Positions 1,146-12,614 of a stretch of 64,000 bases of DNA are shown in pieces. Positions within the stretch are counted from its first letter, which is position 1. Each line of letters opens with the position of its first letter. The stretch lies in the NCBI RefSeq assembly GCF_006546655.1, contig NZ_VIAQ01000015.1, positions 558,001 through 622,000 of the forward strand, written 5' to 3'. A program made the translations under genes and the position numbers. The DNA comes from Methanolobus vulcani. Its GTDB lineage: Archaea > Halobacteriota > Methanosarcinia > Methanosarcinales > Methanosarcinaceae. The notes under the pieces are model-generated. The model ran no database searches. It worked only from the letters and a program-made list of their open reading frames with translations, and was not told the origin of the DNA.

Positions 1146-1460
1146 TCACAGGAATTCCATACTGATACTTCCTGTATCTTTGGCAAGTGTACCCGACATG
1201 AAACCTGATTCTATACAACATACATGCATCACTGCACAGGGCACAAGGCATGTGGAAGTGCATCTTGCCACTTTAGCATTTTCCATTACAAGATTATCTT
1301 TTATATCGAACAGATCCATCATATCGACTTCCAGATGAGACATCTTTTTAATCTTCTCACATGGAGTGTCGATATCAACAATTATCTTTTGACCATCCTT
1401 TCTACCCCTGACAACATGAGTGAACCCACAAATATTGGAATTTACCTTTACTTCTGTCAT
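1146..1460 (-). CDS. Small cysteine-rich protein downstream of RamA
   Basis: A 104-aa soluble protein. The start is set at the ATG 1458-1460, which overlaps the RamA stop as ATGA and has AGGAGG nine bases upstream. An in-frame earlier ATG at 1481 lies within ramA and is less likely. The C-terminal half has a Cys cluster (C-T-S-T-C-L-V-P-C ... C-C), which may bind metal or an Fe-S cluster. I recall such proteins as a methanogen DUF (DUF6951) found near methyltransferase genes, but that name is unverified. Tight coupling with ramA suggests a role in corrinoid-protein activation or methyl transfer. A short hairpin and a T-rich stretch (minus strand, near 1100-1125) may end the transcript. Confidence 0.75.
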   Translation of the reverse strand: MTEVKVNSNICGFTHVVRGRKDGQKIIVDIDTPCEKIKKMSHLEVDMMDLFDIKDNLVMENAKVARCTSTCLVPCAVMHVCCIESGFMSGTLAKDTGSISMEFL

Positions 1461-3127
1461 TGAAATCCTCCTGCAGCCCATGTAGGAAGAACTGAAAGTG
1501 AATAATCATGCATGAGCTTTATTTCCTTGTAGTCAAGGGCATGTATCGGACACACGCTCACACATCTTTTGCATGCCGTCCCCAAACATTTAAGGGTATT
1601 ATACTCTGCAATGAAGCTACCGTCTACATTTTTAATGGATATTGCGTTCTCAGGACATTCATTTTCACATTTGTGGCACATTATGCATCCCACTGCCAGT
1701 TCTTCAAGGGTGATACCGATATCATCTATCACTTCTACACGGCCTGTGCCGGTTTCACTGATATCTTCCGTGGCCCTTTTCTCAAGTACAGGATCGGCAA
1801 TAGGAGCTGGTAGTTCAGGCAATTTAGACATCTTCAAAAGTTTCCGGTACATCTCCATGGACATGCCCTCTGTCCAGTATCCCAATTCACAGGCGTAGAG
1901 CTTCTTGAAGGTTTCACTGGTAGCCATCATAAGATGATCGGCCTTTATGTTTCCTGCCAATTCGATCAGCACATCAAGTTTCACATTTTCAAGAACGATG
2001 TCCCTTGCAAGAGAGAGAGACGTATTTCCAAATTGCACTGTTCTCTTTGTAAAATCCGGGCATGAGCCTATTTTTCTTGCTTTGGCAGGGTTGACATAGG
2101 TTCCGGAAGCACCGCTCATATACATGGTCTCAAGATTCTCATAGGCAATACCGGATTCATGTATCAAGGTCAACTGAGCAGCCCTTATAGCACCTATGGC
2201 CTTACCAGCCTCAATTATATCTTCTTCTGATATCTCTATTCCCTCACCCAATTCGATCCTTCCGTATTTTAGTCTGGGAGGACTTGTAATTAGTCCGGTA
2301 TCTATCGCAAGAGACAATATAGAAATAAGACCAGTTCCCGTAACCCCAACCGGTACTATACCTGATCTTTCAATTATCGTTCCGCTTATCGGGTCTATAA
2401 GATGACCTTTTTCAACGTCCATATTCTCATTCAGTACGTATATTCTCCAGAACTTATCTTCCAGATCAACATCCGTGATAGCTCCAGGAGCTGCAAGCAT
2501 ACCACAACTTATACCCTGTCCTTCTATAGCAGGTCCGGCGGCAGCACTTCCTGTTATTATCCTGTGACCGACTTTTATGGCCATCTCAGCATTCGTTCCG
2601 TAATCCGTCACAAGAGTTGGTTCTTCCTGTTCAAGAAAATCTGTCTCCACCATCATAGCGAGAGCATCTGCCCCGATCTCATGCTCAATGGCAGGTGGAA
2701 TGATAATCAAACAATTCTCAAGGTTCAGGATTCTATGGAATATATCCGTGGCCTTGAAAATCCTGGCATCACGTTGTATGTTGTCTATGCCCAGTCTTTT
2801 TCGCATATTCCTTCCCACATAGGCCAGGTCACGTATCTCCGAATTCTGGAAAAGGGAAAGCTGGATCGGGTTACCACAGACAGCTATCTTTGATATCTGC
2901 AAGGGATCAACATCGAATCCTTCTATCATTTTACCGACAGCATCTATGATTACACCATGTGCCACATCTTCTCCAATAGATATGGCAAAGTCAAGATGAT
3001 CTGTCACGTTCCCACCTGGCAACGGATGCTTCATTGTCATTGAAGTCTTAATTACTTCTTTTGTTTCCAGGTCAATCAACTGAGCCCTAAAGCCACTAGT
3101 TCCCACATCTAATGCAATTCCATACAT
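1457..3127 (-). CDS. ramA: RamA-like corrinoid protein reductive activase (ASKHA ATPase with two 4Fe-4S clusters)
   Basis: Catalyses ATP-dependent reduction of inactive Co(II) corrinoid to Co(I) in methylamine or methyl-sulfide methyltransferase systems (family knowledge). The N-terminus has the actin/Hsp70-type nucleotide loop YGIALDVGTSG. A second glycine-rich segment (VTDYGTNAEM) and a GVTGTGLISIL segment follow. The last ~75 residues carry two ferredoxin clusters, C-I-M-C-H-K-C-E-N-E-C-P and C-L-G-T-A-C-K-R-C-V-S-V-C-P. The start at 3125-3127 (about 556 aa) puts the ATPase loop at the N-terminus and follows a GGGG SD-like stretch. An upstream ATG at 3166 would lie inside the methyltransferase remnant. 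Assignment to RamA rather than another paralogue rests on domain order only. Confidence 0.88.
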   Translation of the reverse strand: MYGIALDVGTSGFRAQLIDLETKEVIKTSMTMKHPLPGGNVTDHLDFAISIGEDVAHGVIIDAVGKMIEGFDVDPLQISKIAVCGNPIQLSLFQNSEIRDLAYVGRNMRKRLGIDNIQRDARIFKATDIFHRILNLENCLIIIPPAIEHEIGADALAMMVETDFLEQEEPTLVTDYGTNAEMAIKVGHRIITGSAAAGPAIEGQGISCGMLAAPGAITDVDLEDKFWRIYVLNENMDVEKGHLIDPISGTIIERSGIVPVGVTGTGLISILSLAIDTGLITSPPRLKYGRIELGEGIEISEEDIIEAGKAIGAIRAAQLTLIHESGIAYENLETMYMSGASGTYVNPAKARKIGSCPDFTKRTVQFGNTSLSLARDIVLENVKLDVLIELAGNIKADHLMMATSETFKKLYACELGYWTEGMSMEMYRKLLKMSKLPELPAPIADPVLEKRATEDISETGTGRVEVIDDIGITLEELAVGCIMCHKCENECPENAISIKNVDGSFIAEYNTLKCLGTACKRCVSVCPIHALDYKEIKLMHDYSLSVLPTWAAGGFQ

Positions 3128-3270
3128 TTTATTACCCCTTTTAAAATATGATGCATTGACTTCCATAGGATTGCCATCTTTTCCAGAGGTGTATTCAGTG
3201 GTACCCTGTCCACTTCTTTTAGTTCAAGAGCGTTGATAAAACGTTCCTTGGAAGTCATTTTATCTTGCAT
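3109..3270 (-). pseudogene. Remnant of an MtaA/MtbA-type (UroD-fold) methyltransferase
   Basis: A 53-codon reading frame with a strong SD site (GGAGGAG) six bases before its ATG. Residues 5-25 read MTSKERFINALELKEVDRVP, the usual N-terminus of methylcobalamin:CoM methyltransferases and other UroD-family proteins. After about 25 residues it jumps to LEKMAILWKS, resembling a motif some 30-40 residues further into MtaA/MtbA, then ends at a TAG. An internal deletion plus loss of everything downstream is the simplest reading. It overlaps the first 19 bases of ramA, so ramA may have been fused up against it by the deletion. It may still be translated as a leader for ramA. Confidence 0.7.
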
Positions 3271-3283
3271 TTAACTCCTCCAA

Positions 3284-4894
3284 TCAGGACTTTTTCAATA
3301 CGATCTTATCAATTCTCAACATATTGCTTACAGCCTCGGTAGCTGCGATAACAGCCATTTGTTTGATGCTGAAAGAATCATATACAGGAGGATTATTGGC
3401 AACGACTTCTCGCGTAAAATCGATTCTGCAGTCAATTCCCTTGTTATACGAATTGAGCATTTTCGTTATCGCATCCACTTCATTGAGACCCACGTTTCGT
3501 GCGAGTGTTCTGGGAATCTCTTCAAGGGCGTTTGCATATTCGACAACAGCGAGTTGCTCTTTTCCTTCAATGGTGGAAGAATACTGCCTGAGCATCTGTG
3601 AGAGCACAAATTCGACATCTCCTCCTCCTCTAAGGACAAGAGGATTCTTCAGTATGAATGCAGCATTATTGACTGCATCATCTACTGCTTCCTCAATCTT
3701 TTCAAGACCATAACTGAAAGGCTCCCATATCATGATCGTGGATATCAGTTGATCACTGACAGAAAGGAAAAGGAAATGCTCATTGTTTCTTTTCTCGACC
3801 TTTGCCTCATCGGCAAAACCCAGATTATGAGGCATTATATCATCCCTGATAGAAAGAATGCTTGCACCTGTTGCCTTTGAGACCATCTCCATGTCCCTTT
3901 TCTTTAGTTTCTGGAAAAGTAGAATACCATGTTTTGCGAGTGATCCCTCAACAGATTCGTCCACATCTCCTTCACAAAAGACCAGGTTAGCCCCTGAATC
4001 AATTATCTTCTGTGACATGGATCTCAGATTTCTTTCCTTTCCATGGAGGATAAGCATTGGATCGGCCAGATCATCTATTCTCAGATTGCGCTGGGAATTT
4101 ATGATCTTGCTCTCAAGTTTCACATTGCCATTAATCATGAGGACGCTTGCATTTTCCAGATGATAAGGCATATCTGACCTTGCAGGTCTTTCGTCCAGCA
4201 CCATTCCTGAAATAGATTCTATTGATGGGGTTCCTATCTTTTTTATAACTTTTACATAATCATTGAGATCTATGTGAGCATCACCATTAATATCCCGGAT
4301 CTTAGAGAGTGTCTTAAGAACGATATCAGCTATTATCCGGGCCTGATGTGCTTCAATTCCTTTACCCAGGCTGGCATTCTCTATGACAGAATGCAGGTCC
4401 CTTTCTGAGCTAATACGAATACTCTCATAATTCAGGATATCATAGGCTTTGTTCAGAGCAAGCTGGTATCCTTTTATGATGGTTGTCGGATGCAGGCCGA
4501 TAGCCATAAGTTTAGCAGCATTTTCGATAAGGGATGCAGCAAGAATGACCGCGGTCTTTGTACCATCACCGCATACCCTGTCCATGGACATCGCAAGCTC
4601 TTTAAGAGAAGTGACCACCGGATGCAATACATCTATCTGTTCAATTATCGTTTTCCCGTCACTCGTAAGATAAACATCGTCTGTTGGACTGATTATTATC
4701 TTGCTCTGACCACGGGGGCCAAAAGATGATACAAGAAGATCCTTGATATCTCTGGAAGCCTGTAGCATCTGATATATTAGCCCGTCTTCTTCAACATCCT
4801 CTTTAATTCCAATACGGTTGCGTACGCTCTGACGCAGGGTATCCATATTGTCCAGTGCATTCGCATTTTGCACATGTTCCAGCGAAGTGCTCAT
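3284..4894 (-). CDS. Divergent group II chaperonin (thermosome/Cpn60-like) protein
   Basis: A 536-aa homologue of TCP-1/thermosome subunits. Recognisable landmarks are SFGPRGQSKI (P-loop-like equatorial motif), TSDGKTII, GDGTKTAV (usual form GDGTTTAV), RGGGDVEF and a C-terminal LRIDKIVL. It departs from standard thermosomes: Lys replaces Thr in the ATP motif, the usual VxDM...GVxEP stretch before the C-terminus is rewritten, and the Gly-rich tail is absent. It starts in an ATGA overlap with the hydantoinase-like gene and sits upstream of ramA. M. acetivorans is known to encode unusual extra Hsp60 forms (Hsp60-4 and Hsp60-5). This may be one, with a dedicated role in methyltransferase or activase folding. 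Whether it hydrolyses ATP is unknown. Confidence 0.88.
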   Translation of the reverse strand: MSTSLEHVQNANALDNMDTLRQSVRNRIGIKEDVEEDGLIYQMLQASRDIKDLLVSSFGPRGQSKIIISPTDDVYLTSDGKTIIEQIDVLHPVVTSLKELAMSMDRVCGDGTKTAVILAASLIENAAKLMAIGLHPTTIIKGYQLALNKAYDILNYESIRISSERDLHSVIENASLGKGIEAHQARIIADIVLKTLSKIRDINGDAHIDLNDYVKVIKKIGTPSIESISGMVLDERPARSDMPYHLENASVLMINGNVKLESKIINSQRNLRIDDLADPMLILHGKERNLRSMSQKIIDSGANLVFCEGDVDESVEGSLAKHGILLFQKLKKRDMEMVSKATGASILSIRDDIMPHNLGFADEAKVEKRNNEHFLFLSVSDQLISTIMIWEPFSYGLEKIEEAVDDAVNNAAFILKNPLVLRGGGDVEFVLSQMLRQYSSTIEGKEQLAVVEYANALEEIPRTLARNVGLNEVDAITKMLNSYNKGIDCRIDFTREVVANNPPVYDSFSIKQMAVIAATEAVSNMLRIDKIVLKKS

Positions 4895-6825
4895 ATTACC
4901 CTCCTTGGAGAACCAACAGCCACTCCAACAATCTTTGTCTCAAGAGGTACCGTTCCGATACTTCCTATGTTATTAGATTCAAGATCAAATCTGACGTTGT
5001 CCATACTTAATCCGTAACCTGCCATATACTCTGAAACTGTTTTATTGACAAGTGAATTAGCCATGTCAAGAGCTTCCTGATAATCATCAAAAGTTTGTCT
5101 TCCATTTTCGGAAAATAGCCTATACTCTGAACTACCAGGAGCTTTTGGCCTTATCAGTACTTCTTCCCTGTAGATCACATTACCGACAAGGGCACCCACT
5201 GCATTACCTACTTCATGGTACTGCGGGACTCTTATATCCGCGTCAATGAGATATTTCATATATTTCACATATGGTGCTACCGGGGCACCCACCATTGCCA
5301 CCGGGGTTTTTATTTTGAATTTCATTAGTTCTGTGCCATTCAATATCTTTTCCAGATCTGCCTTCTTCACATTATCTGCACAGTGTGCAATGAGATTGAG
5401 CACAATACCTCTGGCTACGTCTTCTTTGAGTTTGTCACAGAGGTCGAAGGGTTCCATGGAGAAATATTCTGAAATTATAGAGGCTCCCAACATCGATGCA
5501 CTGGGATTCCATCTTACATAGTCGCCGGTCACATGAAGAACATCTGTCGGGGTGAAACCCACCTGTCTTACATATCTTTTCCGTATGAGTGCTCTCAGGA
5601 TACCTTCGAACATCAGAGGATGCTTATTTGTCCTTGATGCAATATCCGATATTGAGGAAGGTTCTTCTGTGATCGCATCGAATATTTCCATTTCTTCGAT
5701 CTCAAGTTCAGAAGCATGCAGGGAGTGGGATTTTGTCCCAATGGACATGAAGAATGTTGTTGGCTGGATGATATCGTTCATTATGCGCTTAGAGGACTTT
5801 TCAGCGTTCTGCAGTTTACTAATAATAGATGGGAATTCAGCAGCGCAAAGACATAGAGGTATGACCCTGTTAGGTCCGATATACGTTCTTTCCTTCATCC
5901 ATATATGACTGTCTCCTCCAATGGCAGAGGTGTTCATTTTAATAGCTTTTACCATTGTATCCCAGCCACCGACCACAGCGCCGGAACTGCTGATCTCAGG
6001 CATTCCACCCTGGATCATAGAGATGTCTGTACTGGTACCTCCAACATCTACGGTGAGGCAGTCTTTCAGACCCGTTAGATGTGCAGCACCCAGCAGACTC
6101 GCAGCAGGTCCGGAAAAAATGGATTCCACTGGTTTTTTCAAAGCCTCTTCTATCCTTACCAGCGAGCCGTCACATCTCATCATCATCAGGACTGAATTGA
6201 TGTTCTTAGCCTGCATTACGGACCGTACAGACCTTATGAACTGGTCTATTACAGGGATTAGCTGTGCATTGAGGAGTGCTGTCAAAGCTCTTTCGTAGGC
6301 TCCAAGATCCATGGAAAGTTCATGTCCGCAGACCACCGGAAGATCTGTCATCTCCTGTATCATTTCCTTTATCGTGAGTTCATGTTCTGGGTTCCGTACG
6401 CCAAAATATGAAGATATGGCAAACGAAGAGACCTTATGCTGGTTCATTGTTACAAATTCTTTAACGGTGTTCAGGTTACCCAGTGGTTCCACTTCATTTC
6501 CATCGGCATCATGCCTGCCTTCTATGGAAAGTATATGGTCTGTCGGAATTTTCCGGGATATATTATAACCAATAAGTATCAGACCAGCCGGGTATCCCTT
6601 GCCCTCCAGCGTGGTGTTGGTGGCAAGTGTGGTGGATACTGAGGTGAATCTTACATTCGCAAGATATTCGGCTTTGAGGCCATCAATTGAATTTACTATG
6701 CCCTTAATTAGATCAGGGTAAGTAGTAAGCGATTTGTTTGAATCTATTAATGTTCCATCTTCAAGATCCATTATCACGGCATCTGTATATGTGCCGCCAG
6801 TGTCTATGCCAAGTCCGAGATTCAT
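4891..6825 (-). CDS. Hydantoinase A/oxoprolinase-superfamily ASKHA protein
   Basis: A 644-aa ASKHA-fold protein related to HyuA/5-oxoprolinase. The N-terminus has GLGIDTGGTYTDAVI (phosphate 1 loop), and mid-protein has DVGGTSTDISM (phosphate 2 loop). Between them is the family's PVESIFSGPAASLLGAA signature. The start at 6823-6825 is chosen because it follows AAGGTGA at good spacing; an upstream in-frame GTG at 6834 lacks an SD. It overlaps the chaperonin-like gene by four bases, so the two should be translated together. Such proteins occur beside corrinoid methyltransferases in Methanosarcina. RamA is also an ASKHA ATPase, so an accessory activation or ATP-dependent step is inferred, not hydantoin hydrolysis. 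A methylotrophy role is not proven. Confidence 0.85.
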   Translation of the reverse strand: MNLGLGIDTGGTYTDAVIMDLEDGTLIDSNKSLTTYPDLIKGIVNSIDGLKAEYLANVRFTSVSTTLATNTTLEGKGYPAGLILIGYNISRKIPTDHILSIEGRHDADGNEVEPLGNLNTVKEFVTMNQHKVSSFAISSYFGVRNPEHELTIKEMIQEMTDLPVVCGHELSMDLGAYERALTALLNAQLIPVIDQFIRSVRSVMQAKNINSVLMMMRCDGSLVRIEEALKKPVESIFSGPAASLLGAAHLTGLKDCLTVDVGGTSTDISMIQGGMPEISSSGAVVGGWDTMVKAIKMNTSAIGGDSHIWMKERTYIGPNRVIPLCLCAAEFPSIISKLQNAEKSSKRIMNDIIQPTTFFMSIGTKSHSLHASELEIEEMEIFDAITEEPSSISDIASRTNKHPLMFEGILRALIRKRYVRQVGFTPTDVLHVTGDYVRWNPSASMLGASIISEYFSMEPFDLCDKLKEDVARGIVLNLIAHCADNVKKADLEKILNGTELMKFKIKTPVAMVGAPVAPYVKYMKYLIDADIRVPQYHEVGNAVGALVGNVIYREEVLIRPKAPGSSEYRLFSENGRQTFDDYQEALDMANSLVNKTVSEYMAGYGLSMDNVRFDLESNNIGSIGTVPLETKIVGVAVGSPRRVI

Positions 6826-6865
6826 TCTTGTCACCTTTTATGCGGAGGATTTGTGTGGGGATTAA

Positions 6866-6971: not shown

Positions 6972-7010
6972 AAAAAAAGGAAAAGCAGGGGGAAGTGATA
7001 GTTCCTGCTT
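6972..7010 (-). terminator. Hairpin terminator after the Mts-type methyltransferase gene
   Basis: On the minus strand AAGCAGG and CCTGCTT form a 7-bp stem with a 14-base loop, immediately followed by TTCCTTTTTTT. The stem begins in the stop codon of the methyltransferase gene. This separates that transcript from the downstream hydantoinase-chaperonin-ramA operon. Confidence 0.65.
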
Positions 7011-8913
7011 ATCCGAAAATCTGTTTCTGAAGGTCCGGCCCCAGTTCTTTAACCACGTCTACCATTGCCTTCACAGTTGTAAGAGTTCCTCCGGGTGGGG
7101 TCTCACAACCGGTTGACATGACATATTTGGATTGCAGTCCGTTCTCCTTGAGTACAGGAAGCACACCTTCAAGCAGATCCTTAGTGTCATCCTTTACCTT
7201 CTGAATACCTTCAGAAGTATTATCCATGAACTGTACCGGATTTATCTCTCCCATCATACAGCATACATCACCATACTTTGGAATAAGGTCTGCATAGTTC
7301 TGTGATCCCTTGCTCCTTAGTTTTGGATAGTATGCGTAGCTGTACAATTGAGTTCCGAATTTCTTGATCTGTGTGTCAAAGTGCACTGCATCTGCACAGT
7401 TGTGTATTATGTAGGGCTGGTCGTATTTCTTGAATATTGGAATATGCTGTTCGTATACGAACTTCCCATCAAACTTCCAGTAGTCCTCCTCGCTCATGAT
7501 CACGTTGTTAGACCAGAGGTTGTCGATACACAGTGCATTACAGGCATTTTCTGCAAAGAACAATTCAGATACCTGGCAGATGTAATCCGTACATTTCTGG
7601 ACTGCTTCAAGCACCACATCAGGATGTGTCTTCATATCCATCAGGACACGGTCTGCACCCATTAGTTGGGTAAGGGTAAGCAGTGGACCTTCATGGAATC
7701 CGACAAATGGGGTGTTGAGTTCCTTGTTAAGTTTTTCAGTAGCTGCTTTAGATGCCATTATAAGCTCATAGGCACGAGTACCTTCCTTGACTTCAGGAAC
7801 TTCTATCTGTTCATATGCCTCAAGGTGTCCTTCAGATGAGGGTGTGTCATCTTCAGGGTACTTTATTTTACATCCGAAGTCAGCCGATGTTGCAGAAAGA
7901 TCAATGAGACCTACGAACATGTCCGTATCCAGATATTTGGATCCAAGGTAAGCACTCTCAACAAACGCATTTATGTCAGTGGCATACTCCCTGTAGTTGA
8001 CATCAGCAAATTTCCTCAAAGAACCACAGGCCAGAGGATAAACAGGCAATCTGTCTACCTTTTTGTCAGCCATTGCAGCTAATGTCCTGTCTATATGGGT
8101 CATTTCCTCCTTCGTCTTGACAGCTACACTCTCAAAGTCTGCAATGATCTGCTTTGCAGTTTCCAGACCAATGTCCGTCTTTCCTTTGACCTTCTTTTTA
8201 GACAGAATCTCTCTGTATTTGACCTTGCCAAGTGAGATCTTCTCCTCACTCCACCTCTCTTCAGCAGGGGCAAGTTTGCTTACAGCTTCCTTTGCCCATT
8301 CTGTAGCTACCATTGAATCGGGATGTGTTGAGTCCGCACCGATCTGTTCTGCGAATTCCGGGGAAACAGGTGCTCCTCCTATCATGACTATGAGGGAATC
8401 TCTGGTACCTTCTTCCTGCAGCATCTCAATTACTTTCTCCATGTTGGTCATGGTAGTTGTCATCAAGGCACTCATTGAAACCAGGTCTGCCTTCTTCTCC
8501 TTCGCTACCTCTACAAATTTCTCAACCGGTACATCGTGTCCCAGATCGATCATATCAAAGCCGGATGCAGACATCATTGTCTTGACAAGGTTTTTTCCAA
8601 TATCGTGGACATCTCCTTCGATAGTTCCTATAACGCCTATGGCACGCTTTCCACTGCTCTCTACATTCATATGTGGAGTCAGTATATCCATACCTGCATA
8701 CATGGCACCGGATGCGATGAGCAGGTGTGGTACAAAGGCTTCACCTTTTTCGTATTTGTCACTTACAATTACCATTCCTTTTGCAAGTCCGTCCACAATA
8801 GCCTCATAAGGATCAACGCCTTCATCAAGGGCTTTTTGTGCAAGTTCTTCTGCCAGGTCTTCGTCACCTTCGACCACAGCTTCCGCTAATTGGTTCAGAA
8901 TTGCTGTTTTCAT
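7009..8913 (-). CDS. Mts-type fused corrinoid protein/methyltransferase (methyl-sulfide:CoM methyltransferase)
   Basis: Transfers methyl groups from dimethyl sulfide or methanethiol-type substrates to coenzyme M via a built-in corrinoid, by analogy with MtsD, MtsF and MtsH of Methanosarcina acetivorans. Residues 1-215 are a corrinoid domain with a helical cap and a B12 site: D101-x-H103-x-x-G106, where His103 is the expected cobalt ligand, plus MSALMTTT and IGGAPV segments. Residues from about 270 are a UroD-like barrel with zinc ligands His504-x-Cys506 and Cys603 in an STGCETPPGG motif. The 634-aa length fits the fused Mts proteins, not separate MtaA/MtbA (about 340 aa). The start follows TTTTGGAGGT. 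The adjacent sensor kinase and Msr-type regulator support the assignment. Which Mts isozyme it is cannot be decided. Confidence 0.9.
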   Translation of the reverse strand: MKTAILNQLAEAVVEGDEDLAEELAQKALDEGVDPYEAIVDGLAKGMVIVSDKYEKGEAFVPHLLIASGAMYAGMDILTPHMNVESSGKRAIGVIGTIEGDVHDIGKNLVKTMMSASGFDMIDLGHDVPVEKFVEVAKEKKADLVSMSALMTTTMTNMEKVIEMLQEEGTRDSLIVMIGGAPVSPEFAEQIGADSTHPDSMVATEWAKEAVSKLAPAEERWSEEKISLGKVKYREILSKKKVKGKTDIGLETAKQIIADFESVAVKTKEEMTHIDRTLAAMADKKVDRLPVYPLACGSLRKFADVNYREYATDINAFVESAYLGSKYLDTDMFVGLIDLSATSADFGCKIKYPEDDTPSSEGHLEAYEQIEVPEVKEGTRAYELIMASKAATEKLNKELNTPFVGFHEGPLLTLTQLMGADRVLMDMKTHPDVVLEAVQKCTDYICQVSELFFAENACNALCIDNLWSNNVIMSEEDYWKFDGKFVYEQHIPIFKKYDQPYIIHNCADAVHFDTQIKKFGTQLYSYAYYPKLRSKGSQNYADLIPKYGDVCCMMGEINPVQFMDNTSEGIQKVKDDTKDLLEGVLPVLKENGLQSKYVMSTGCETPPGGTLTTVKAMVDVVKELGPDLQKQIFG

Positions 8914-9279: not shown

Positions 9280-10065
9280 TCAGAGATCAGTCACTTCTTG
9301 TGCTATTTTTCTGTAAAACTGATACATATTTTCTCCCCATTTCAATGCATCCATTTCAAAACTCATCATAGCATGATTGTGGAACATACCGTTCTTATAG
9401 AACAGTGTTAATGAAAGGAATCTGTCTGTTACTACACTTGACGCAAAATCAATATCCTCTTTACACACAAAAAGTTCCGTATTTTCCATCCTGAGATAAT
9501 CCTTCAATTGTTCTAAATACTCTGTTTCAAATCTTTCAAATACAGACTCAGTTATTATTACTGAGATTCGGACACCTTTTCTGGCAAGTTCAATGTATTT
9601 ATAGGGATAAGCAGGGCTGAATGAAGAGGAGATTTCCATGATATATTCTGACTGTACAAGATTGTCGGTGAACTTTTTCGGCAATTCATACATACGATTG
9701 AGTTCCGGCTCAACAAGTTCACAGGAACCTAGCTCTTCTATACTCTCTAGAAGATGTGCCGGAATTCCTTTTACCTTATGATTTTCCCAGTATTGTTTAT
9801 TGTCTTCAAAGACCATTAACGTATTTAACAGAGGCACCATTTTCTTTACAATAACTTCACCGAAACTGGAAAGCTGGTACTGATCATTCTCATAAAGTAT
9901 TATGCCCTGATCAATGAGGATCTTTATTTGCGTCATCATGGCACTGGACGTGACATTAAGTGTACTTTTGATCTCATCGATGTTCATAGGTTTTTCTATC
10001 AGCAGAAGGAGAAGATCTTTTCTTTTGTCTGAGAGAAAAAGAGTACCTAACAAAGCCAATTTCAT
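9280..10065 (-). CDS. Msr-type winged-helix regulator of a methyltransferase gene
   Basis: A 261-aa transcription regulator with an ArsR-like winged helix at residues 1-75 (recognition segment LNVTSSAMMTQIKILIDQGI) and a C-terminal domain of the methanogen-specific DUF1724 type. The same architecture is found in MsrC, MsrE, MsrF and MsrG, which control methyl-sulfide methyltransferase genes in M. acetivorans. It overlaps the sensor kinase gene by four bases, so sensor and regulator are co-translated. It lies directly upstream of the mts gene, whose leader DNA carries tandem repeats. It probably activates that gene. It has no receiver domain, so how the kinase would signal to it is not evident. 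Confidence 0.85.
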   Translation of the reverse strand: MKLALLGTLFLSDKRKDLLLLLIEKPMNIDEIKSTLNVTSSAMMTQIKILIDQGIILYENDQYQLSSFGEVIVKKMVPLLNTLMVFEDNKQYWENHKVKGIPAHLLESIEELGSCELVEPELNRMYELPKKFTDNLVQSEYIMEISSSFSPAYPYKYIELARKGVRISVIITESVFERFETEYLEQLKDYLRMENTELFVCKEDIDFASSVVTDRFLSLTLFYKNGMFHNHAMMSFEMDALKWGENMYQFYRKIAQEVTDL

Positions 10066-12614
10066 GTCATCATCTCACGTTTGATATTTTGTGCGGAATT
10101 GTCTTTCACAACCTCTATTGGAAGCCTTATGTGGAATGTTGTTCCTTTACCCTTTTCACTTTCAATCCATATCTCGCCTTTATGTTCAAGGATTATATCC
10201 TTACAGATGTACAGACCGGATTCAAGTCCCTGGAACATTCGACTCATTGAGTCCTCCATCTGGTAGAATTTCTGGAAGATATGCGGAATAAGATCTTTTT
10301 GTATACCCGGTCCCGTATCAGATATCCTCAAGTGCAGATGGGCACTTTCTTCATTCAGATCTATGTTTATTCTTCCGCATTCAGGAGTGAATTTGATCGC
10401 ATTATCTATGAGAATTATCAATGTTTGAGTCAGTTTATCCTTATCAGAGCTTATTGTCGGTAATCCCTCAGGCACATTAACTTCTAAATTAATTCCTTTC
10501 TCATCTATTAGTAGTATAAGATTCATCAAGGCTTCAGATATTAGTTTATCTACATGTGTCTGGGAAAAAGTATATACAATCTTTCCAGCCTGTTCCTGAC
10601 TCATATACAGAAGTGAATTTACCATACGTTTCAGTCTTTCAGAGTTAAGTAATACGGAATCGATAGCTTTTGCCTGCTGATCATCAATAACCATGACCAT
10701 TTCATCATCAAAGATACCGCACTCTGCGCGCTCAGGACCATATATAGACTCCAGCCGTTCTGCAATGAACTCGGTCTTCATCTTGTTGATGGACCTTAGT
10801 TCCTCATTTGCCATCTTTAGCTCATCAGAATATTGTTTTAAGGCGTCTTCTATTTGTTTTCTTTGAATAAGACTCCACATACCCTGCATTAATAAGGTCA
10901 GCTGGCGTAAATCTGATTCATCATAATCTTCCGTTTTATTGCCAACACCTGCAACGGCAACTATGTGGTCACCATCGAATATCGGGATGTTCATATGCCT
11001 GGTAAGTTCTATGTGGTCCTCAGGGTATCCCTTTTTCATAGGACTTGGATGAGAATAATCGTTTGTGATTATAGGTTTGCGCTGCCTTATTGCTTCACCC
11101 CATAACCCAGTGGTCTTTATGGGATACACAAAACTTTTGTCTTTGATACCACATTCCTTCATAGCACTTTTCGACCAGGAATGCATAATAAGGGCTGTCT
11201 CATCTGCATTCATGAACGCAAGGTATCCAAGCGTACTTTCGGTAAGCCTTACAGCTTCTTCTCTTGCAAAATCGGTGATCTCATTCAATGATGCACCTGT
11301 CATACTATTTAGTTTAACAAGCGCTTCAAGCCTTTCTTCTTCTAGCCGGCGCTTTCTTTCGGCTCTTTTGCGCTCAGTAATGTCTCTGGCAACTGACAGA
11401 ATGGTTTTTTTACCATCATATATTATGAATCGGGCACTGACTTCCAGCGGTATTTTCCTGCCATCCTTACGTATCGCCTCAGTCTCATATATTGCCCTTC
11501 CATCCTTTTCGATTTTCGTCATAAGTTTTGACACTCGACGCACATCTTTTGATGGAATTGTGTCGATAGGGTATGAATTTAACATCTCATTCCTGCTGTA
11601 ACCCAATGTATCTACTACAGCTTGATTAACAGCAAGTGTTTTCCCGTCAAGTTCACTGATATAGATCAGATCGTTCACATTGTTGAGAATGACCTTAAGC
11701 TTTTGTTCAGATTCGACAGCATTATCCAATACTCTCTTTTTGTTTATTGCAATAGCTGCAAGATTGGCGTTTGCTTTTAGGATATCAATCTCTTCTTTTG
11801 TAGGCACGTGGGGTTCACGGAAGTATATTCCAAAAGTTCCAAAGACCTCATTATTCGAACTAATTATAGGTTCGCAACAACTAGCTCTAAGGCCTGCCTG
11901 AACTGCAACTTCCCTAAGATCATCCCAGTATGGATGCTCCATTATGTCTTCTACAACAACCCTTTTCCCGGTGTGAACAGCAGTTGAACAGGATCCAATA
12001 CCTTCGCCTATGGGCAGTCCTTCAATAGCTTTTTTATAGAAATCCGGAAGATGAGTAGAAATAGCATGAACAAGATGTTTCTTTTCCTCGTCCAGTAACA
12101 TGACAATACTGATTGCTTCCGGTATCAGTCTTTTAGTAGATCTCACCAAACGCGTAAGAATCTCATTCAGAGTTTCATCTAAAGCCAGAGCTTCAAGAAC
12201 CTGATTGCGGCAATCAATTATTGATTCAGAGAGTTTTCGCTGGCTTATATCAAGTAGAACACCTTCATAATACTGAATATTACCATTGTCATCCCTTTGG
12301 ATGATTGTCCTGTCGTCAACACAACGTGCTTCGCCAGATGCCGTTAATATTCTATATTCCTGTACAAAATTATCAACATGTTTTTCTGAGTATTCAGTAA
12401 CCTCTTTGTGTACACGCTCAATATCATCCGGATGGATAATATCTTCATACTTTAGTCTGCCTGAAAAAAACTCTTCAGATGAATATCCAAACTGTTTGAC
12501 ATTCTCTGAAACAAATTCTACTGGCCACTCTTCTTCTGGCTTCCATATGAAAATTGTTACAGGACTATCATTGACAACTTTTGCAATTTCCGAATTTACA
12601 TCGAGTTGTGTCAT
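10062..12614 (-). CDS. MsmS/RdmS-like PAS-GAF-PAS-GAF sensor kinase
   Basis: An 850-aa protein without membrane segments. Order: PAS (about 15-135), GAF (150-300), PAS (300-420), GAF (435-590), a HisKA-like region (600-690) and HATPase (725-835). The ATPase has ILIDNAIKFTPE and SDTGPGI boxes and a degenerate second Gly box (GLESGLYI). The architecture matches MsmS (RdmS) of M. acetivorans, a redox sensor that holds heme through a Cys in the second GAF. The only Cys in this protein's second GAF is Cys488, so it is the candidate ligand. No His stands at the usual HisKA phosphoacceptor position, where the sequence is KTEFIAERLESIYG. It is paired with the Msr-type regulator by a four-base overlap. 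Confidence 0.87.
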   Translation of the reverse strand: MTQLDVNSEIAKVVNDSPVTIFIWKPEEEWPVEFVSENVKQFGYSSEEFFSGRLKYEDIIHPDDIERVHKEVTEYSEKHVDNFVQEYRILTASGEARCVDDRTIIQRDDNGNIQYYEGVLLDISQRKLSESIIDCRNQVLEALALDETLNEILTRLVRSTKRLIPEAISIVMLLDEEKKHLVHAISTHLPDFYKKAIEGLPIGEGIGSCSTAVHTGKRVVVEDIMEHPYWDDLREVAVQAGLRASCCEPIISSNNEVFGTFGIYFREPHVPTKEEIDILKANANLAAIAINKKRVLDNAVESEQKLKVILNNVNDLIYISELDGKTLAVNQAVVDTLGYSRNEMLNSYPIDTIPSKDVRRVSKLMTKIEKDGRAIYETEAIRKDGRKIPLEVSARFIIYDGKKTILSVARDITERKRAERKRRLEEERLEALVKLNSMTGASLNEITDFAREEAVRLTESTLGYLAFMNADETALIMHSWSKSAMKECGIKDKSFVYPIKTTGLWGEAIRQRKPIITNDYSHPSPMKKGYPEDHIELTRHMNIPIFDGDHIVAVAGVGNKTEDYDESDLRQLTLLMQGMWSLIQRKQIEDALKQYSDELKMANEELRSINKMKTEFIAERLESIYGPERAECGIFDDEMVMVIDDQQAKAIDSVLLNSERLKRMVNSLLYMSQEQAGKIVYTFSQTHVDKLISEALMNLILLIDEKGINLEVNVPEGLPTISSDKDKLTQTLIILIDNAIKFTPECGRINIDLNEESAHLHLRISDTGPGIQKDLIPHIFQKFYQMEDSMSRMFQGLESGLYICKDIILEHKGEIWIESEKGKGTTFHIRLPIEVVKDNSAQNIKREMMT

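Follow-up and report, generated by a model that had tools for sequence, protein, structure and literature searches.

The chaperonin gene and its locus

The window considered here is a stretch of 64,000 nucleotides from Methanolobus vulcani (assembly GCF_006546655.1, contig NZ_VIAQ01000015.1, forward-strand positions 558,001 to 622,000), in which the gene of a divergent group II chaperonin, referred to here as CPN, lies close to the gene of Mts, a fused corrinoid/methyl-transfer protein. All of the genes considered here lie on the minus strand, where the histidine kinase comes first and is followed by the FilR1/Msr regulator, the fused Mts, the hydantoinase-like ASKHA protein, CPN, RamA, and the DUF6951 protein. 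The features on which the analysis is centered are the following, with coordinates counted from the first letter of the window.

7009..8913, minus strand: Mts, an MtsD-type fused corrinoid/methyl-transfer protein (Pfam PF02607, PF02310, and PF01208), the proposed client of the chaperonin
4891..6834, minus strand: hydantoinase/oxoprolinase-type ASKHA protein of 647 amino acids with a GTG start (PF01968, Hydantoinase_A; PF05378, Hydant_A_N), between Mts and CPN
3284..4894, minus strand: CPN, the Mts-associated divergent group II chaperonin, 536 amino acids, 59 kDa (Cpn60_TCP1, 387 bits)
4556..4570, minus strand: P-loop segment GDGTK of CPN (residues 109-113), with Lys113 in place of a Thr of GDGTTT
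1457..3127 (proposed start), minus strand: RamA, corrinoid reductive activase (TIGR04270, 740 bits; RACo domains and Fer4 motifs)
1146..1460, minus strand: DUF6951 Cys-rich protein (PF22263), with an ATGA overlap with RamA

The Mts protein (634 amino acids, 70 kDa) combines a B12-binding N-terminal half with a URO-D TIM-barrel C-terminal half, and is 80% identical to the mtsD-locus copy of a Methanosarcina acetivorans-like genome. The hydantoinase-like and CPN genes overlap by ATGA at 4891-4894, as do those of RamA and the DUF6951 protein at 1457-1460. Each Methanosarcinaceae genome encodes many paralogues of the hydantoinase-like ASKHA protein, which are approximately 50% identical, and several of these lie near corrinoid methyltransferases.

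The assignment of CPN to the group II chaperonin superfamily is based on a full-length Cpn60_TCP1 domain (387 bits against a cut-off of 34.3, covering positions 1-489 of the 490 in the profile), and the lid region of these chaperonins is present in its alignment with solved thermosomes. The GroEL models, by contrast, match only the N-terminal part of the protein, and weakly (at most 76 bits), so that it does not qualify as a group I chaperonin. CPN also falls below the cut-offs of the thermosome equivalog models NF041082, NF041083, and TIGR02339, with scores of 342.5 against 450, 335 against 400, and 341.1 against 671.1 bits, respectively. Two samples were used for comparison, one of 186 Methanosarcinales genomes and one of 393 genomes of the phylum (Halobacteriota), the latter searched with a profile of the clade. 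In the first, the members of the clade are 42-93% identical to the CPN of the window, followed by a gap to the ordinary thermosomes, at no more than about 35%. In the second, the full-length members score at least 835 bits and every other chaperonin at most 416.

In the tree, 55 Methanosarcinaceae proteins and two Archaeoglobi-like proteins are split from the thermosomes by a branch with 100% support, although the joining of the latter pair is less certain than the Methanosarcinaceae clade, due to long branches. The label “Archaeoglobi-like” is derived from gene content and from the place of the family in the phylum sample. Both lineages share residues that are unlike those of the thermosomes, that is, Cys108 and Lys113 of the P-loop, together with Lys81, Glu235, Arg239, Gly309, and Glu402. 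An AlphaFold2 model of CPN, derived from an alignment of 13 sequences, was too poor to be of use (pLDDT 55, pTM 0.36). One member, in genome G139 (L081:9293-10897), is only 54% identical to the CPN of the window, while its Mts, hydantoinase-like, and RamA neighbors are 76-85% identical, which represents an accelerated branch of the chaperonin. A candidate for a second divergent group II chaperonin in the genome (C14:161475) was discarded, given that it is a group I GroEL.

Linkage and co-occurrence of CPN and Mts

A chaperonin dedicated to one enzyme is expected to be encoded with that enzyme and to occur only with it. Among the Methanosarcinales genomes, 47 have both CPN and Mts, none has CPN alone, six have Mts alone, and 133 have neither (Fisher p 7e-38, uncorrected for kinship), and the presence of the two genes is patchy, yet concordant, inside six genera. 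Of the six genomes with Mts alone (G122, G123, G161, G166, G170, and G175), G175 is 60% complete, and in the other five the contig ends within 3 kb downstream of each Mts copy, with the opening codons of CPN still visible at the contig end in G166. In the phylum sample, Mts is found in 35 genomes and the chaperonin in 32 of these, the remaining three having contig breaks. A search of plasmids for the fused Mts recovered corrinoid-domain matches only. In several Methanosarcina assemblies (G161, G166, and G170; loci L123, L124, and L125), the contigs end at CPN or close to it, which is probably due to the difficulty of assembling near-identical copies.

The two genes are also closely linked, with 60 of the 61 mapped CPN copies lying on the same strand as an Mts gene and within 3.1 kb of it, while the remaining copy is at the start of a contig. 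The arrangement itself varies (Mts-hydantoinase-CPN, Mts-CPN, or CPN upstream of Mts), and 37 of 60 loci have the hydantoinase-like gene between the two. In a count of the genes within 5 kb of CPN over 48 loci, Mts is present at all 48, the hydantoinase-like gene at 32, RamA at 20, and the DUF6951 and CobW-type GTPase genes at 19 each. A FilR1/Msr-type regulator is found within 8 kb at 35 of 36 loci. The genome also contains three ordinary thermosome genes, none of which has Mts, the hydantoinase-like gene, RamA, DUF6951, or a CobW-type GTPase as a neighbor. The constancy of Mts, in comparison with RamA, indicates that the partner of the chaperonin is Mts, and the CPN clade is most likely dedicated to this enzyme family and responsible for its maturation.

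The first-pass annotation of the locus had proposed a corrinoid-activation operon at 1457-6825 with a dedicated divergent chaperonin. The genes that it named, that is, the hydantoinase-like ASKHA protein, the chaperonin, RamA, and the Cys-rich protein, are all borne out, together with the ATGA overlaps at two junctions, although its limits leave out Mts (7009-8913), the key neighbor. Linkage and co-occurrence strongly support the coupling of a dedicated, divergent chaperonin to a corrinoid methyltransferase system, and the free occurrence of homologues away from methyltransferase loci, which would have spoken against it, is contradicted by the position of the mapped copies. The proposed search for the hydantoinase-chaperonin-ramA order across Methanosarcinales recovers a constant link of the chaperonin to Mts, with variable hydantoinase-like and RamA genes. 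The emphasis on activation is thus weakened, and an operon centered on RamA was rejected, given that the constant linkage of CPN to RamA that it requires fails.

That CPN is a machine for corrinoid loading or activation, with RamA, the hydantoinase-like protein, or the corrinoid step itself as its target instead of the folding of Mts, is for the same reason quite improbable. The recurrence of the RamA, DUF6951, hydantoinase-like, and CobW-type GTPase genes near CPN, and the presence of RamA beside the Archaeoglobi pair, are compatible with such an action, but neither RamA nor the hydantoinase-like gene approaches the frequency of Mts, and genomes devoid of CPN contain many paralogues of the hydantoinase-like protein. 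Even less plausible, to the point of being hardly credible, is a general stress chaperonin that has hitchhiked in a methyl-sulfide gene cluster. CPN is a full-length protein with intact ATPase residues, in line with this explanation, but no genome has CPN alone, and the linkage survives several arrangements and extends to the Archaeoglobi-like genomes.

For 64 Mts copies the sequence extends 4.5 kb or more downstream, and 57 of these have a CPN within 3.5 kb. The seven exceptions are two MtsH copies, the second Mts copies of G084 and G090, and three copies in G158 and G173, and all of the genomes involved carry an intact CPN elsewhere. The broken CPN copies of G157 and G168 are likewise accompanied by an intact copy in the same genome, and both patterns fit a product that acts in trans.

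Seven genomes have multiple CPN copies, which are mostly 88-99.6% identical to one another, with a divergent third copy (55%) in G160. The MtsD and MtsF types form deep, separate clades that are approximately 55% identical, whereas the CPNs pair in the trees by genome and not by locus type, and a single clade of D-locus CPNs is rejected (p-AU 1.7e-60). The CPN copies have thus evolved in concert, and either gene conversion or repeated re-duplication would yield the similarity found within genomes. Given that these copies remain alike despite the divergence of the neighboring Mts, one type of chaperonin appears to serve different Mts paralogues. The paralogues differ in substrate, with MtsD preferring dimethyl sulfide and MtsF methanethiol (PMC7374477).

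Catalytic residues and the proposed role of the chaperonin

In an alignment of the clade with solved thermosomes, all 55 full-length Methanosarcinaceae CPNs share the catalytic Asp pair, the P-loop Asp, and the sensor Lys, without exception, at positions which we take to be equivalent to Asp60, Asp91, Asp386, and Lys161 of the Methanococcus maripaludis chaperonin. The equivalent of Asp386 is Asp406 in the CPN of the window. The roles of such residues in group II chaperonins have been described previously (PMC5635000). The Lys that replaces Thr in the P-loop is invariant in 57 of 57 proteins, including both Archaeoglobi cousins, and the Gly-Met C-terminal tail is absent throughout the clade. 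The first-pass annotation had recognized both the GDGTKT P-loop and the missing tail, which are indeed kept across the clade, and had taken them to suggest that the protein is not a general folding machine. The reading of CPN as something other than an active folding machine is not supported for the Methanosarcinaceae, given the invariance of the catalytic residues, but does apply to the Archaeoglobi cousins. A loss of the catalytic Asp in the Methanosarcinaceae was also considered and rejected, as this residue lies in the TxDG motif and is invariant.

The two Archaeoglobi-like genomes each have a remote cousin of CPN, 8-13 bp behind their own Mts, which is 55% identical to that of the window. 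This pair has lost the sensor Lys as well as the two catalytic Asp residues, and is therefore predicted to lack ATP hydrolysis. The two loci (L169:6141-11811 and L170:102-5888) comprise the fused Mts, the apparently ATPase-dead chaperonin, a convergent RamA, and a protein of 180-188 amino acids without a Pfam match.

The best explanation of these patterns, with a probability of roughly 0.65, is that CPN acts as a group II chaperonin dedicated to the maturation of one client, the fused Mts of the MtsD/MtsF type. CPN would be co-induced with Mts, and its subunits would assemble into a chaperonin ring. This ring would capture Mts (70 kDa, with two domains, one half being a TIM barrel) when it is freshly synthesized or damaged. 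The ATP-driven closure of the ring may then fold Mts, or keep it competent for the uptake of corrinoid, after which RamA and the hydantoinase-like ASKHA protein would convert the bound cobalt to its active form, Co(I). The folding of barrels is an established task of chaperonins (PMC9720267). In M. acetivorans, the genes MA4384-MA4394, from mtsF through mtaCB2, react as one block to the depletion of HdrED (PMC11619418), and the position of a CPN within this block, as inferred from locus L110 of genome G148, which resembles M. acetivorans in its numbers of chaperonin and Mts genes, indirectly supports its co-expression with Mts.

A number of observations weigh against this interpretation. To our knowledge, the URO-D barrel relatives MtaA and MtbA need no such partner. 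The MtsH loci of G148 and G080 (L126:6284-10909 and L127:11119-15659) have no CPN, and a CobW-type GTPase gene lies downstream, the product of which is perhaps an alternative maturation partner, so that a strict need of Mts for a local CPN may be doubtful. The loss of the catalytic residues in the Archaeoglobi pair also means that not every member of the clade needs ATP-driven folding.

This loss speaks for a chaperonin that holds Mts as a non-catalytic scaffold or sequesters it in a cage, with a secondary place for ATP turnover, as the gene still stands beside Mts in the lineage concerned. This is decidedly unlikely, given that the 55 Methanosarcinaceae proteins retain every catalytic residue checked. 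A related and somewhat less doubtful proposal, still on the unlikely side, is that the conserved job of the family is not ATP-driven folding, and that the chaperonin serves as a cage or scaffold in which the fused Mts is loaded with cobamide or reductively reactivated. If so, the Archaeoglobi-like lineage, which lost the catalytic set and kept the gene behind Mts, would show that the holding of a client can outlive the ATPase.

The subunits of CCT divide labor among themselves, and CPN may, by this model, co-assemble with the ordinary thermosome subunits to give a mixed ring with an Mts-specific face, which would imply the same client in a different ring. This is rather unlikely. It would agree with the treatment of subunits 4 and 5 of M. 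acetivorans as further thermosome subunits in the literature (PMC6420498), and with the lack of catalytic residues in the Archaeoglobi cousins, as could be expected of a passive subunit, but the N-terminal segment and C-terminal tail of CPN are unlike those of the thermosomes, which argues for separate rings without settling the question. The confidence placed in these alternatives overlaps, as the mixed ring and the scaffold share the same client. The dedicated chaperonin for Mts remains the preferred reading.

Known counterparts and neighboring features

Archaeal chaperonins are usually viewed as general folding machines. CPN resembles the thermosomes in its full-length alignment over three domains, its catalytic Asp pair and sensor Lys, and its built-in lid region, and differs from them in its identity of approximately 32-35%, its sub-equivalog scores, the Lys of the P-loop, the missing Gly-Met tail, and its dedicated locus. 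Some group II relatives, such as the vertebrate Bardet-Biedl syndrome (BBS) proteins MKKS, BBS10, and BBS12, are specialized for one client, and some of these have degenerate ATP sites, which recalls the Archaeoglobi pair. Their client and cell biology are unrelated, and the likeness drawn here is one of description.

A closer parallel is found in MmoG/MimG, which, like CPN, are chaperonin paralogues encoded in a catabolic cluster, in this case those of the soluble methane and propane monooxygenases. They are required for the functional expression of one enzyme, and mycobacterial counterparts are known (PMC7994243). MmoG/MimG are bacterial group I chaperonins with a di-iron monooxygenase as the client, whereas CPN, which is archaeal and of group II, is encoded beside a corrinoid methyltransferase, and may best be explained as a group II analogue of this system.

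There are six chaperonin matches in the M. acetivorans-like genome G148, where five group II and one group I are expected, and two of these are CPNs of the clade, at the mtsD and mtsF loci. As far as we know, the extra subunits of M. acetivorans were once believed to be unique to that species. Five group II subunits, the maximum then known, have been described in M. acetivorans, with no role assigned to subunits 4 and 5 in two reviews (PMC5220055, PMC6420498). In the part of the second that is available, subunits 4 and 5 cluster together and are treated as ordinary thermosome subunits, with no mention of a link to mts. These two subunits are almost certainly the CPN genes of the clade. A search of the literature found no paper tying CPN to mts, although a passing mention in subscription papers on mts loci is possible.

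The present data thus connect the extra M. acetivorans subunits with a single enzyme family, which acts in the formation of methane from dimethyl sulfide and methanethiol, and the clade represents a marker for methyl-sulfide methanogenesis. If the proposed role is correct, genetically tractable organisms would offer a group II chaperonin that naturally serves only one client, in which the origins of client specificity could be studied, and the heterologous production of MtsD or MtsF may need co-expression of CPN.

The locus has three further features.

10062..12614, minus strand: PAS/GAF histidine kinase (Pfam), with an ATGA overlap with the regulator
9280..10065, minus strand: FilR1/Msr-type regulator of the Mts unit (PF08350)
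3109..3270, minus strand: remnant of an MtbA/MtaA-like URO-D methyltransferase, 53 codons, from alignment with locus L066

The RamA gene probably starts at 3127 (MYGIALDVG), instead of the called start at 3166. It does not overlap CPN, and the gap of approximately 150 bp between the two contains the truncated methyltransferase gene. This gene is intact in the close relative L066 (about 370 codons) and present in most Methanolobus-like loci, and the complete order in the relatives is Mts, hydantoinase-like protein, CPN, methyltransferase, RamA, and DUF6951. In the window, the gene was truncated by a deletion of approximately 970 bp between two TACCACTG repeats.

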